From Pseudovibrio ascidiaceicola (GTDB taxonomy: Bacteria; Pseudomonadota; Alphaproteobacteria; Rhizobiales; Stappiaceae), in assembly GCF_900114245.1 (NCBI RefSeq), contig NZ_FOSK01000004.1, forward strand, positions 186,001 through 250,000: a DNA stretch of 64,000 nucleotides. The letters are read 5' to 3'. Below are positions 25,022 to 29,835 of this stretch, in pieces. The translations under genes and the position numbers were made by a program. Each line of letters starts with the position of its first letter. Position 1 is the first letter of the stretch. The notes beneath the pieces are model-generated. The model was not told where the DNA came from and ran no database searches. It saw only the letters and a list, made by a program, of their open reading frames with translations.

Positions 25022-25681
25022 TTAAGCATCCACCTGAATAAACTTGGCGACCCAATCTTGCATCGCTTTGCGGTTTATATCGATCGATGTTGCCGCATGA
25101 GAAAGAGACTGCATGGCCTGCCACCAGTGTTGGCATTTTGGCTTCAGCATGAGCTCTCCACCGAACATACCTGCAAGCTGCTGAGCTTGAGAAAACGTAG
25201 TGGCATAGGCAACATCAACGAGGGTGACGTGATGACCTACGGCATAAGGCTCAGCGTCAATCATGTCTTCTAAGCGCTCAAACGCAACACTCATATCATT
25301 GATCAACTGCTTGTAGACTTCGTCCCTTGGAGGCTTGCCTGCTTTGATCGGAGCATAAAATGCACGAACAGATGGCTCAATGCGCGTATCGTGCAGGCCC
25401 ATCAGAGCTCTGACTTTAGCTCGCTCGATAGGATGTTCTGGCAGCAGAGCTGGAGACGGTGCGGTTTCCTCGAGATACTCAAGGATCGCGTTTGAATCTG
25501 AAAGAGCGGCTTCACCATCCTTCAGGCCGGGGATAGAACCGGCTGGAACAATCTTCTTGTAGGCTGCTGATCCATACCCATCTGGAGGCGGTAGTTCGGC
25601 GTAATCCAGATCTTTCATGTCCAAAGCAATTCGAACTTTCGCGCAAAATACGGATTCTGGGTAGGCAAAAAATTGTATCAT
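25022..25681 (-). CDS. glutathione S-transferase family protein
   Basis: A 219-residue protein. The N-terminal thioredoxin-like domain has YPESVFCAKVRIALDMKDLD (catalytic Ser or Cys in the YPxSxFC region) and the cis-Pro/SNAIL motif IPGLKDGEAALSDSNAILEY. The C-terminal helical domain ends near residue 215, with the N-capping HVTLVDVAYATTF motif. It is probably cytoplasmic, conjugating or reducing electrophiles with glutathione. It is not obviously tied to either neighbour. Confidence 0.88.
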   Translation of the reverse strand: MIQFFAYPESVFCAKVRIALDMKDLDYAELPPPDGYGSAAYKKIVPAGSIPGLKDGEAALSDSNAILEYLEETAPSPALLPEHPIERAKVRALMGLHDTRIEPSVRAFYAPIKAGKPPRDEVYKQLINDMSVAFERLEDMIDAEPYAVGHHVTLVDVAYATTFSQAQQLAGMFGGELMLKPKCQHWWQAMQSLSHAATSIDINRKAMQDWVAKFIQVDA

Positions 25682-25902: not shown

Positions 25903-26673
25903 CTAGAGCTGCTTGGCGCTGTCCAAGTTCACCTTGAAGATCATTAGATCATCCCGACGCTCGACTTCACCTTCCAGCGAAATCAAAAGAGCGACCCAAT
26001 CTTCAACCTCAGTGGTCAAAGGCTCACCATTCTCGTCAGCCAACACGAAAAACTCACTTCCCATAAGGGGCGTAGAGGTTACGAAAACGGGAGGAATACC
26101 ACCAATGATGCAGAGATTTGCGCAGGCCTTGTGGGCTAAGCCAACACCTGGACGCATTGCGCCGTTGTAGCATTTGCCGTCACAGATCTCGCCAGTTAAC
26201 CGCCATTTGCCTAAATGCTCTGCTGGTGCTGGTGTAAAGTTCTGAACTGGGTTTTCCGCAGCGCGAAGAGAGACCTTTCCTCCGACCTGCAGCATATCCA
26301 AATCACCACGCTTCAGCAAAATACCACCCGCATCAACCGGTTGCCCATCTAAAGGCCCGGCAAGTTGCTGCATACCCCGTTTGCCAACACCAGAAATCAG
26401 CATGGCATGCGGCTTGTCACGCCCATTTTCTCCGGCGGGAAGCCGGAGAAGTGGGTAAGGTTTTGCATCTACGTAGCCCGTAAACGTTTGATATCCAGCA
26501 CCCCATGCAAAGCGGGCATCACCCGGGTCTGGGATAGACGAACCAACACCAAACGCCACGCCTGCTGCTGCGCCAACGAGGATTGCAGAGATCAGGAACA
26601 AGAAGCCTTGCAGGCTCTTTGGTGGCTTCTTCGCCCAACCGATAAAGAAGGGATCAGGTTTCTTTTTGGCCAT
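25903..26673 (-). CDS. membrane-anchored protein with C-x3-C...C-x3-C motif, last gene of the Rieske/FMN operon
   Basis: A 256-residue protein with one transmembrane helix (about 22-45, GFLFLISAILVGAAAGVAFG) and a C-terminal domain. The domain has a striking conserved-looking stretch, GEICDGKCYNGAMRPG, followed by His181 and CANLCIIGGIPPVF. This gives C164-x3-C168, then C184-x3-C188, a likely metal or disulfide site. I recognise this motif from uncharacterised redox-associated membrane proteins, but no function is known to me. Its ATG overlaps the stop of the Rieske/ferric-reductase gene (TGATG), so the two are translationally coupled. Confidence 0.72.
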   Translation of the reverse strand: MAKKKPDPFFIGWAKKPPKSLQGFLFLISAILVGAAAGVAFGVGSSIPDPGDARFAWGAGYQTFTGYVDAKPYPLLRLPAGENGRDKPHAMLISGVGKRGMQQLAGPLDGQPVDAGGILLKRGDLDMLQVGGKVSLRAAENPVQNFTPAPAEHLGKWRLTGEICDGKCYNGAMRPGVGLAHKACANLCIIGGIPPVFVTSTPLMGSEFFVLADENGEPLTTEVEDWVALLISLEGEVERRDDLMIFKVNLDSAKQL

Positions 26674-27740
26674 CAGCTTCCCTCCATCATTATCGGAGAA
26701 ACAGTAGGTTCAACATACGTTCCAGGTGGCTGAGCTTCTACGTTCAGCCACAAACGACCGTTTTCCAGTTTAAGGCGATATGTGGAAATTTTCTCTGTAA
26801 ATGGTGGTGGAGATTTTCCATCTTCCAGGCGGTACTGATAGCCATGCCAAGGGCAAGTCACGCAGCCATAAACAATTTTGCCTTCTCCCAAAGGCCCATT
26901 CTGGTGGGCACAAACATTGGAGATCGCAGAGAGTTTCTTGCCATTTCTGAAGATCGCGACGCGCTCGTCATCAGTAATGGAGATAATTCTCGCCCGCTTA
27001 TCAGGAACATCTTTTGGATCACCTGCATCCATCCAGGTGCCGCTGTCATCCATCGTATTCTGTTGCGTATCAAAGAGATGCTCTTTTCTTGCAGCAAGCA
27101 GATGCAAGGTAGCGACAAGCGCGACGGACGCCCCGACTGCAGTGGTCATGAAAGGACCAGCAGCGCTTTGCAAAGCGCCTAGTGCGACGTGGGCAACAAC
27201 CAGCGCATACGCCAGATAGATCCCCATATGGAGTGTCTTCCAAAGCGTAGGCTTTAGGAAATGAAGCCAGAAATCATGACTTGTAACTGCGAGAATGGTC
27301 AGGATCAGAAGGGCAAAGACTCCGAGGATTTCGAAAGGGAAACCCAGGAAACGATCAAAGCTGGTATTTACAATGAAGACCGAGACGTAACGATTAATCG
27401 GCGAGAATGCATTGTACCAGCCGAGGATATTGTCGACATGGAAGTACGCGAGAACGCAAGTGATCACGCCTAGGTGACGGCGGTTATACAGAAGCGGCAG
27501 GAAGCGCTTGTCCAACCGTGCTAGCGGTCCGATACATAGAATGAACGTGAGCAGGAAGAAGACACAGGTTCCAAATGCCTGAGCTTTGTAGATGTCCCAA
27601 TCAATCGGTCTTGTGACTGTCTGGAACATCGGCGCAACGTAGATGTAGATTCCCAGATATGCGCCAACAGTTGCCAAGACGACGGCATCATAGACAAATT
27701 TTGTACGGTTCCAGATTACCGGTACATATTTAACACTCAC
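26673..27740 (-). CDS. ferric-reductase-like transmembrane protein with C-terminal Rieske [2Fe-2S] domain
   Basis: A 355-residue protein starting at GTG (27740). The N-terminal part (1-215) has about six helices and several in-helix His (H101, H171, H184) able to bind haem, as in the ferric reductase/YedZ fold. The C-terminal Rieske domain (about 250-345) has C277-x-H279 (NVCAHQNGPLG) and C296-x2-H299 (TCPWHGYQY). This would pass electrons between a membrane haem or quinone site and a Rieske centre. It overlaps the preceding 55-residue gene (GTGA) and the following one, inside a five-gene operon. Confidence 0.85.
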   Translation of the reverse strand: MSVKYVPVIWNRTKFVYDAVVLATVGAYLGIYIYVAPMFQTVTRPIDWDIYKAQAFGTCVFFLLTFILCIGPLARLDKRFLPLLYNRRHLGVITCVLAYFHVDNILGWYNAFSPINRYVSVFIVNTSFDRFLGFPFEILGVFALLILTILAVTSHDFWLHFLKPTLWKTLHMGIYLAYALVVAHVALGALQSAAGPFMTTAVGASVALVATLHLLAARKEHLFDTQQNTMDDSGTWMDAGDPKDVPDKRARIISITDDERVAIFRNGKKLSAISNVCAHQNGPLGEGKIVYGCVTCPWHGYQYRLEDGKSPPPFTEKISTYRLKLENGRLWLNVEAQPPGTYVEPTVSPIMMEGS

Positions 27741-27904
27741 TGGTTTGCCTCCAGAGCCGACTTTGCTGTGTCGTCAAGGGGAACAGGCGGCTGTTCGTGC
27801 GTTCCTGTCGGACGCATCAAAAGCGCTAGTCCCAAAACGAGAGGAATAAGAATGGCCAAAATGAGCCAAATGGTGCGGTGGGCTTTTCTATAGGCGCGCT
27901 GCAT
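27737..27904 (-). CDS. 55-residue single-pass membrane protein
   Basis: A short frame beginning MQRAYRKAHR, with one transmembrane helix (IWLILAILIPLVLGLALLM, about 12-30) and a Pro/acidic tail ending LEANQ. Its ATG overlaps the TAA of the upstream 89-residue gene, and its TGA overlaps the GTG of the ferric-reductase gene. This double coupling strongly supports translation. A basic N-terminus suggests N-in, C-out topology. No family recognised; it may be a small subunit of a membrane redox complex. Confidence 0.75.
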   Translation of the reverse strand: MQRAYRKAHRTIWLILAILIPLVLGLALLMRPTGTHEQPPVPLDDTAKSALEANQ

Positions 27905-28173
27905 TACTTCTTGGCCTCCTGCTCTTCGTGGAGTTCTTTTTCTTCTTTATCGAGCAAGATTTTTTCACCGGAGCGTTCCAGTGCAATCCAACGCACAATG
28001 ACAACTGGCCAAAGAAGGATCAGCCCCGGGATAATCTGTAGGCGGAAGAGATAAGCTCCACGCGCAGCAAGTTCCACACGCCCCAGGCCGAAACTGATAA
28101 AAGCCAGAGCGACGACAAGACCAATCACGCAGTAAACTTGTGCAATCAGAATAATACCTTCAGCAACGATCAT
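27904..28173 (-). CDS. 89-residue membrane protein of the Rieske/FMN operon
   Basis: Two hydrophobic segments (about 4-30, GIILIAQVYCVIGLVVALAF, and 45-62, LQIIPGLILLWPVVIVRWIA) are followed by a charged tail rich in Glu and Lys (LLDKEEKELHEEQEAKK). It lies 45 bp after the FMN/Rieske gene, and its stop overlaps the next start. Its place among redox genes suggests a membrane-complex subunit. No named family recognised. Confidence 0.75.
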   Translation of the reverse strand: MIVAEGIILIAQVYCVIGLVVALAFISFGLGRVELAARGAYLFRLQIIPGLILLWPVVIVRWIALERSGEKILLDKEEKELHEEQEAKK

Positions 28174-28218
28174 TTCTGCACCCTACTGATTTTGTGCTGC
28201 CGTTGTTGGCAGGGAGAA

Positions 28219-29835
28219 TTAGTCATTGGAGCCGTGCCCTGCCCAGTTGATGCCAGCAAGCTCCGCCATATCCTTCTTCCAACTCGTGATGTCATCGATA
28301 GAGAAATCGGAGATATGTGCATGCCCACAGGCCCGGGCCATCACTTTCATCAGTTCAACTGAGGCCGTGAAAAACTTCTCCAAACGCTTTGCGGACTTTT
28401 CAACTTCCAAACGCGCAACCAGATGGTCTTTCTGAGTGGCGATACCGACTGGGCAGTTGTTGGTATGGCACGCTCTCATAGCGATACAGCCGATGGCCTG
28501 CATGGGCGCATTCGCCAAGGCTATTGCATCGGCACCCAAGGCCATTGCTTTCACGAAATCTTCCGGTTTACGAAGTCCACCGGTAATGACAAGCGTTACA
28601 TCCCGTTGACCGCTGCGATCCAGATGACGACGCGCTCGCGCCAACGCCGGAATGGTTGGAACAGAAATATTATCTCTGAACACGAGCGGAGACGCACCAG
28701 TGCCGCCACCGCGTCCATCGAGGATAATATAATCAACGCCAACTTCCAGAGCGGCATCAATGTCTTTTTCGATGTGCTGTGCAGAAAGCTTGAAGCCAAT
28801 TGGGATCCCGCCAGTTTTATCCCGCACTTCATCTGCGAACTTGCGGAAATCTGCAGGCTTCATCCACTCTGGAAATCTTGCAGGCGAGATTGCGCCCTCT
28901 CCCGGTGGCAACCCTCTCACCGCTGCGATTTTCTCAGTCACTTTCGCAGCTGGAAGGTGTCCACCAGTTCCGGTTTTTGCCGCCTGTCCGCCTTTGAAAT
29001 GGAAGGCTTGAACTTTTTCCAGCTGGTCCCATGAAAAGCCGAAGCGCGCAGAAGCTAACTCATAAAAGTAACGCGTATTTTCTGCTTGCTCTTCTGGCAA
29101 CATCCCACCTTCACCGGAGCAGATACCTGTGCCGACGCTCTCCGCTCCGCGAGCAAGTGCTATTTTTGCTGGTTCAGACAATGCACCGAAGCTCATATCT
29201 GAGACGAAGAGCGGGATTTGCAGGTGTAAAGGTTTTTGAGCTTTGGGACCAATAACGATATCTGTTCCAACGGGCTCTTCATCCAAACGCGGCGGCTTCT
29301 GCAGCTGCGCTGTCAGTATCTGGATGTCCTCCCATTGAGGCAGTTCTGTCGTTGGCACCCCCATAGCTTCAATTGCGCCGTGATGGCCCGTCTGCTTCAG
29401 GCCTGCACGTGCGTATGTTTGAATCAGTTTGTTATGGGGTTCTTCTTCCGTGCCATGAAAGTCCGCATACTCACCCAGATAGGCTTTGCGGAAATAAGGT
29501 TGCGGATTGTCCTTTGCCCATGCCTTCACTTCATCTTCATCAACATAGATGTTGCCGTCTTCAACGAAATGCGTGAACTTTCGCAGGCACTCTTTATTGT
29601 CATAGGCGCTGACGCCAGAATTCAGGCGATAATCCCATTGGTGCAGTCCACAAATCAGATTGCGACCTCTGACATATCCATCAGAAAGCAATGCACCGCG
29701 ATGGAGGCAACGGCCGTAGAGGACGGAGATGTCCTCATCAAACTTTACGACAACGAGATCCACCTCGCTAACAAGTGCATGAGCAGGCTTACGATCTTCA
29801 AGTTCATCTAATGCAGCAACTTGCACTTTACGCAT
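28219..29835 (-). CDS. Rieske-domain / glutamate-synthase-type FMN [3Fe-4S] fusion oxidoreductase
   Basis: A 538-residue protein. The N-terminal Rieske domain (about 1-105) has C43-x-H45 (GRCLHRGA) and C62-x2-H65 (ICGLHQWDY). The rest is the FMN-binding barrel of glutamate synthase large subunits: FVSDMSFGALSEPAKIALAR, GICSGEGGMLPEE, GGQAAKTGTGGHLP, DGRGGGTGASP and the cluster motif CIAMRACHTNNCPVGIATQ. The glutaminase domain of true GltB is missing, so ammonia-dependent or unrelated chemistry is likely. It heads the five-gene operon with the Rieske/ferric-reductase protein. Cytoplasmic by lack of a signal. Substrate unknown. Confidence 0.87.
   Translation of the reverse strand: MRKVQVAALDELEDRKPAHALVSEVDLVVVKFDEDISVLYGRCLHRGALLSDGYVRGRNLICGLHQWDYRLNSGVSAYDNKECLRKFTHFVEDGNIYVDEDEVKAWAKDNPQPYFRKAYLGEYADFHGTEEEPHNKLIQTYARAGLKQTGHHGAIEAMGVPTTELPQWEDIQILTAQLQKPPRLDEEPVGTDIVIGPKAQKPLHLQIPLFVSDMSFGALSEPAKIALARGAESVGTGICSGEGGMLPEEQAENTRYFYELASARFGFSWDQLEKVQAFHFKGGQAAKTGTGGHLPAAKVTEKIAAVRGLPPGEGAISPARFPEWMKPADFRKFADEVRDKTGGIPIGFKLSAQHIEKDIDAALEVGVDYIILDGRGGGTGASPLVFRDNISVPTIPALARARRHLDRSGQRDVTLVITGGLRKPEDFVKAMALGADAIALANAPMQAIGCIAMRACHTNNCPVGIATQKDHLVARLEVEKSAKRLEKFFTASVELMKVMARACGHAHISDFSIDDITSWKKDMAELAGINWAGHGSND

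Follow-up and report, generated by a model that had tools for sequence, protein, structure and literature searches.

Gene layout of the operon

The window we analyzed is a stretch of 64,000 nucleotides from Pseudovibrio ascidiaceicola. It contains a compact operon of five open reading frames (ORFs), here called genes A to E, which span 29835-25903 on the minus strand. A sequence-only reading of the window had given the order as a fusion of a Rieske domain with a flavin mononucleotide (FMN)/[3Fe-4S] domain, two small membrane proteins, a ferric-reductase-like protein with a Rieske domain, and a protein with two C-x3-C motifs. ORF calling, Pfam and hydropathy confirmed this order. A and B are separated by 45 bp, while B and C overlap by 1 base, C and D by 4 and D and E by 1, so it is true that each of the last four genes overlaps a neighbor. 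The nearest named relatives of the locus are in Pseudovibrio, with E up to 98% identical. As described below, the operon is made of two modules, a conserved membrane core formed by B, D, E and in part of the loci C, and a separable partner, A.

Protein A is related to glutamate synthase and to CDGSH proteins

Protein A (28219-29835, 538 aa) has a Rieske domain at residues 4-79 (29599-29826; Pfam E = 4.1e-12) and a glutamate-synthase-type FMN barrel at residues 193-504 (28324-29259; Glu_synthase, PF01645, E = 7e-91). The Rieske ligands C43, H45, C62 and H65 were invariant in an alignment of five sequences. Three further cysteines (C450-x5-C456-x4-C461, 28453-28488) align with the [3Fe-4S] cysteines of GltB and are the predicted ligands of such a cluster in A. 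The Pfam scan of A found no glutaminase family, as the sequence-only reading had said, and no zf-CDGSH match. None of the five proteins reaches an NCBIfam cut-off.

The host genome, which we searched as a 5.85 Mb assembly, encodes a separate GltB of its own. A and GltB belong to one FMN barrel family and have the three [3Fe-4S] cysteines in common, but A is about one third as long, lacks the glutaminase, has the Rieske domain added and differs in a loop that reads KPGEGGQLP in GltB and KTGTGGHLP in A. The A version of the loop is common to all of the relatives that we aligned, Rieske-fused or not (12 Rieske, 5 other and 1 haloarchaeal), and for this reason we place A in a subfamily separate from GltB. 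Glutamate synthesis as the role of A is disfavored by the loop residues and by the presence of GltB, and genes of this subfamily that are annotated as "glutamate synthase-related" are probably not glutamate synthases.

The Rieske domain can be exchanged for another iron-sulfur module. In a sample of 385 alphaproteobacterial genomes (the class sample), all four Rieske-less relatives of A that we scanned have two CDGSH motifs per protein in its place, and their barrels are 66-68% identical to that of A. Tandem CDGSH motifs with a glutamate-synthase FMN domain were named "type 5 CISD" by Lin et al. 2011 (PMC3174974; see also PMC5859297 for the architecture), and the accessible text of the 2011 paper names the architecture and states no function for it. 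Judged by its sequence, A is the Rieske counterpart of type 5 CISD, with the same barrel subfamily and the same KTGTGGHLP loop, but with a Rieske domain where type 5 CISD has its two CDGSH motifs. The Rieske form gives us a handle on the CDGSH-glutamate-synthase proteins, as it is often accompanied by a defined membrane partner that lends itself to deletion and purification.

The membrane core

B (27904-28173) is a protein of 89 aa with two predicted membrane helices and C (27737-27904) one of 55 aa with a single predicted helix. Pfam gave no family at E<=1 for B, C or E. Many related loci have a short B with a C-like gene after it, and others have a longer B with three predicted helices. Among the loci listed there is often a further small membrane gene 3' of E.

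D (26673-27740, 355 aa, GTG start) combines a ferric-reductase-type membrane domain at residues 57-181 (27198-27572; Ferric_reduct, E = 1.2e-9) with a Rieske domain at residues 236-309 (26814-27035; E = 2.4e-13). The Rieske ligands C277, H279, C296 and H299 were invariant in an alignment of seven sequences. Pfam matches and conserved ligands both fit the two Rieske centers, one in A and one in D, of the sequence-only reading. Four histidines of the membrane part, H89, H101, H171 and H184, were also invariant in seven divergent sequences and would suit two hemes. Ferric reductases and NOX-type cytochromes likewise have a Ferric_reduct domain and paired membrane histidines, but they carry flavin adenine dinucleotide (FAD) and NAD(P)H domains, which Pfam does not find in D, where there is a Rieske domain instead. 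MsrQ shares the membrane domain and the paired histidines as well, although D scores only 33.8 bits with the MsrQ model against a cut-off of 130. A Pfam search confined to the five operon genes found no molybdopterin enzyme (MsrP) among them.

E (25903-26673, 256 aa) is modeled as one membrane helix and two barrels (mean predicted local distance difference test 88.7, predicted template modeling score 0.79, built from 54 sequences). The C-x3-C pairs noticed in the sequence-only reading are present as C164-x3-C168 and C184-x3-C188, within a conserved Cys/Met/His stretch at residues 162-188 (26110-26190). C168, M173, H181 and C184 are found in 97 of 97 E sequences, C188 in 96 (one has a gap) and C164, the least conserved, in 94. 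A Foldseek search with the model gave no match in the PDB at E<=1e-3 and only weak matches to oligonucleotide-binding folds (SSB-like), and the best match in a profile search of solved structures was at 0.013. The conserved Cys/His/Met set might be a copper site of the CuA or SCO type, but no fold match at E<=1e-3 goes with it.

Relatives of the last domain of E occur next to genes of the SCO1 type. One of them, a 155-aa protein in G047 (hhalign probability 94, E = 1.1e-7), adjoins SCO1 and has an N terminus that resembles an export signal, and another adjoins an SCO1-like gene in G297. From these relatives we infer that E may be periplasmic and have a copper-related role; the lysine-rich N terminus of the E in the window fits a periplasmic topology. 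Relatives of this domain at L021:8532-10334 and L020:8286-10077 lie by SCO1-type genes and keep the Cys-Met-His-Cys-Cys residues.

Conservation of the two modules

We compared 86 core loci, which were the best 80 of 344 E relatives in GTDB contigs and 6 loci that we fetched separately (of the 8 fetched, two were excluded because their E-like match was distant). Some of the contigs are short. D is present in 84 of the 86 loci, B in 77 and C in part of them. The core recurs across these loci, which makes the layout more than chance, and B-(C)-D-E counts as a core conserved in Alphaproteobacteria.

A is present in 46 of the 86 loci (not counting a fragment in L036) and is Rieske-fused in every one. 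It is on the strand of E in 45 of the 46, and in 30 it shares D's strand at a distance of at most 1.2 kb. The sequence-only reading had named co-occurrence elsewhere as a point on which it could fail, and the genes do co-occur, with A adjoining the core in these 46 loci. It had also proposed a membrane-bound electron-transfer complex. Membrane electron transfer is well backed by the domains and conserved ligands, but a single obligate five-subunit complex is ruled out, as A and the core are each found without the other, with no A in the examined stretch of 40 of the 86 core loci.

A second Rieske fusion, which we call T, is present in 34 of the 86 loci and together with A in 26. T has an N-terminal Rieske domain and three thiamine pyrophosphate (TPP) enzyme domains. 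The fusion was not found in the P. ascidiaceicola genome. The nearest solved structure is PoxB and the best NCBIfam model is pyruvate oxidase (388.8 bits, cut-off 742). The C-terminal stretch of PoxB binds that enzyme to the membrane. T shares the three TPP-enzyme domains, but it has the additional Rieske domain and lacks the C-terminal end, with the alignment stopping at PoxB residue 527 of 572. Since the membrane anchor is missing, direct docking on the membrane could have given way to a Rieske plug. In three longer T proteins (L119:8488-11148, L120:8090-10705 and L121:7557-10190; three of three scanned), CDGSH, Fer4_19 and CDGSH modules come ahead of the Rieske domain, which makes four iron-sulfur modules on one pyruvate-oxidase-like enzyme.

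For cores that have neither A nor T, we found no general fixed partner among the neighborhoods listed or among the Rieske proteins of eight such genomes. The lone set that we saw with such cores is a Rhizobium-type group of CoA-transferase, TPP and OpgC genes. In these loci (L152:704-4685, L064, L073, L077, L082 and L104) the core lies by a CoA-transferase III, an OpgC-domain protein and a Rieske-less TPP enzyme and not by A and T.

Co-occurrence across genomes

Genome-wide counts were made in the class sample and in an order sample of 249 genomes of the order. In the class sample, D is found in 18 of 385 genomes and an A-like barrel in 14. Nine of the 14 are full-length and Rieske-fused and four match only from residue 127-129. 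We set aside G617, whose A lies at a contig end and begins only at residue 92, and left out its cut T as well. D accompanies full-length Rieske-A in 8 of 9 genomes, the ninth genome being 67% complete, and CDGSH-A in 0 of 4. Full-length T is found in 13 genomes, six of them with D, and the same six have Rieske-A.

In the order sample, D is found in 14 genomes and A in 32, with 23 Rieske-fused, 8 matching only from residue 121-129 and 1 partial, which we excluded. D is present in 8 of the 23 Rieske-A genomes compared with 14 of 249 overall. T is present in 11 of the 23 and in 1 of 7 genomes with a non-Rieske A (the eighth is not included). Fisher tests, which ignore phylogeny, gave 3.5e-11 (class) and 3.2e-6 (order) for Rieske-A with D, and 0.015 for D presence with Rieske versus non-Rieske A in the pooled samples. 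A strict rule that A goes with D almost holds in the class sample, but the order sample weakens it. A, T and D tend to occur together, and none requires another.

A possible electron path and its alternatives

The explanation we lean towards, with a confidence that stops somewhat short of even, is that A is a soluble cytoplasmic flavoenzyme that feeds a membrane electron conduit, B-E, through Rieske domains. The FMN barrel of A would oxidize (or, less likely, reduce) a small substrate, and electrons would pass from FMN to the [3Fe-4S] cluster and on to the Rieske domain of A. That domain would dock on D, not on the NADPH or ferredoxin partner that glutamate synthase uses, and would hand the electrons to the Rieske domain of D on the cytoplasmic side. 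From there they would reach two b hemes in the membrane part of D and then either the periplasmic Cys3-His-Met site of E or quinone, with B and C as small subunits of the conduit. T may plug in as A would, in related genomes, as a second Rieske-fused cytoplasmic donor, through D where D exists. This path has behind it the domains and ligands of A and D, the position of A beside the core, the co-occurrence of D with Rieske-A and not with CDGSH-A in the class sample, the four invariant membrane histidines of D, the kinship of E's last domain to a neighbor of SCO1, and the existence of T, an unrelated enzyme with a Rieske domain of its own and no PoxB-type C-terminal end. The sequence-only reading had left the reaction as an amination, a reduction or an oxidation. 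Nothing we found indicates amination, and of the rest we infer oxidation to be favored.

Several counts speak against this path, chief among them how often A and T occur without D. D is missing in 7 of the 13 class-sample genomes with full-length T and in 15 of the 23 order-sample genomes with Rieske-A, so another acceptor would be needed there. In the class sample, both A (E<=1e-100) and T (E<=1e-150) are missing from 10 of the 18 D genomes, and one D genome, G497, has just two Rieske domains in total, from which it follows that D needs neither partner. Finally, a Rieske-less A occurs together with D in 1 of 8 order-sample genomes (G858).

A broader and distinctly more tentative proposal is that B-E represents an undescribed class of membrane oxidoreductase, a ferric-reductase-type cytochrome that has a Rieske domain where others have the flavin-NAD(P)H arm and that feeds electrons to a periplasmic Cys3-His-Met site of copper type. 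Rieske domains would then be interchangeable plugs for unrelated enzymes, an FMN barrel or a TPP oxidase, leading to B-E or, as in the D-less genomes and the haloarchaea, to another acceptor. If the electron path is right, it would add an entry point to bacterial electron-transport chains, with Rieske domains as docking plugs that join soluble enzymes to the membrane. Within the titles and abstract openings that our literature search covered, with most subscription papers outside it, we found no description of a Rieske-glutamate-synthase protein, a Rieske-TPP protein or the B-E core.

The main rival is that A and the B-E core have separate stress functions and share regulation, not electrons, which we consider possible and rather doubtful. 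A would act with the antiporter and T against redox or ion stress, and B-E would be an MsrQ-like conduit for periplasmic repair or detoxification. Both A and the core are also found alone, which fits this rival, and so do the neighbors. In 18 of the 46 loci that have both core and A, the gene immediately before A is K+/H+-antiporter-like, and a pair of genes for an extracytoplasmic function (ECF) sigma factor and a zf-HC2 anti-sigma factor lies near A in six A loci. In Rhizobium leguminosarum WSM1689 the core adjoins ECF sigma, DUF1109, chlorite-dismutase-family and NrsF genes, and one further genome (L061/L146) has a chlorite-dismutase-like gene close to its core. These neighbors hint at stress regulation, and reactive-chlorine stress as the role of the core is only a lead. 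However, in the window no antiporter, ECF sigma, anti-sigma, chlorite-dismutase or NrsF gene was recognized beside the operon, and the Rieske domains on both A and D, the gene order and the co-occurrence in the class sample suggest that electrons are shared.

Electrons could also run the other way, with D drawing them from quinol or from E and handing them to A for a reductive amination or imine reduction of the kind that glutamate synthase makes. We consider this unlikely, and less probable than separate functions. A retains the barrel and the [3Fe-4S] cysteines, and the FMN of glutamate synthase reduces 2-iminoglutarate, according to the accessible text of PMC8097209. Against this, A has no glutaminase and has its own loop in a genome that has its own GltB, and the other Rieske-fused partner, T, comes from an oxidizing family that acts on 2-oxo acids. 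That A is simply a piece of glutamate synthase, degenerate or ordinary, as its public label "glutamate synthase-related protein" might suggest, is highly improbable given its own loop signature, its conserved neighborhood and a fusion that is kept across the 62 Rieske-A sequences we gathered (12 of these are the aligned ones) and in haloarchaea at 58-60% identity.

Other neighbors and haloarchaeal plasmids

Downstream of E, 221 bp away and on the same strand, is a gene of the glutathione S-transferase (GST) family (25022-25681). The ORF list of the window has no ORF of at least 40 aa on that strand in the gap that separates E from the gene after it. Among the loci listed with their neighbors, a GST gene is kept at this place in 6 of the 7 Pseudovibrio loci that have A, and none was seen there in the core loci of other genera.

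Neighborhoods of D-less Rieske-A genes could be inspected in 13 of the 15 genomes, and an antiporter-like gene is near A in 9 of these and T in 5. The ECF sigma/zf-HC2 pair lies by antiporter-A genes at L135:303-1129, and L136, L140, L142, L148 and L017 are similar.

In three haloarchaea, the full-length Rieske-A and T share a plasmid. The two genes are 1.4 kb apart in Salinirubellus, about 17 kb apart in Halorubrum and 4 kb apart in Halorarius, where a sodium:proton antiporter gene lies between them. The Salinirubellus T has Rieske and TPP domains by Pfam and is 58% identical to bacterial T, and the T proteins of the other two match it from residue 8 and 16 onward. T is also on one Haloferax plasmid and one Mycobacteroides plasmid, where A was not found. 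The latter is from Mycobacteroides abscessus (T at L157:7001-8902), with a cation:proton antiporter gene and a flavodoxin gene nearby. On the haloarchaeal plasmids L150, L151, L154 and L156, Rieske-A and T are accompanied by genes annotated as merA, DsrE, TauE/SafE, DHFR and M20 hydrolase, an assortment that suggests a mobile island for redox or metal stress.

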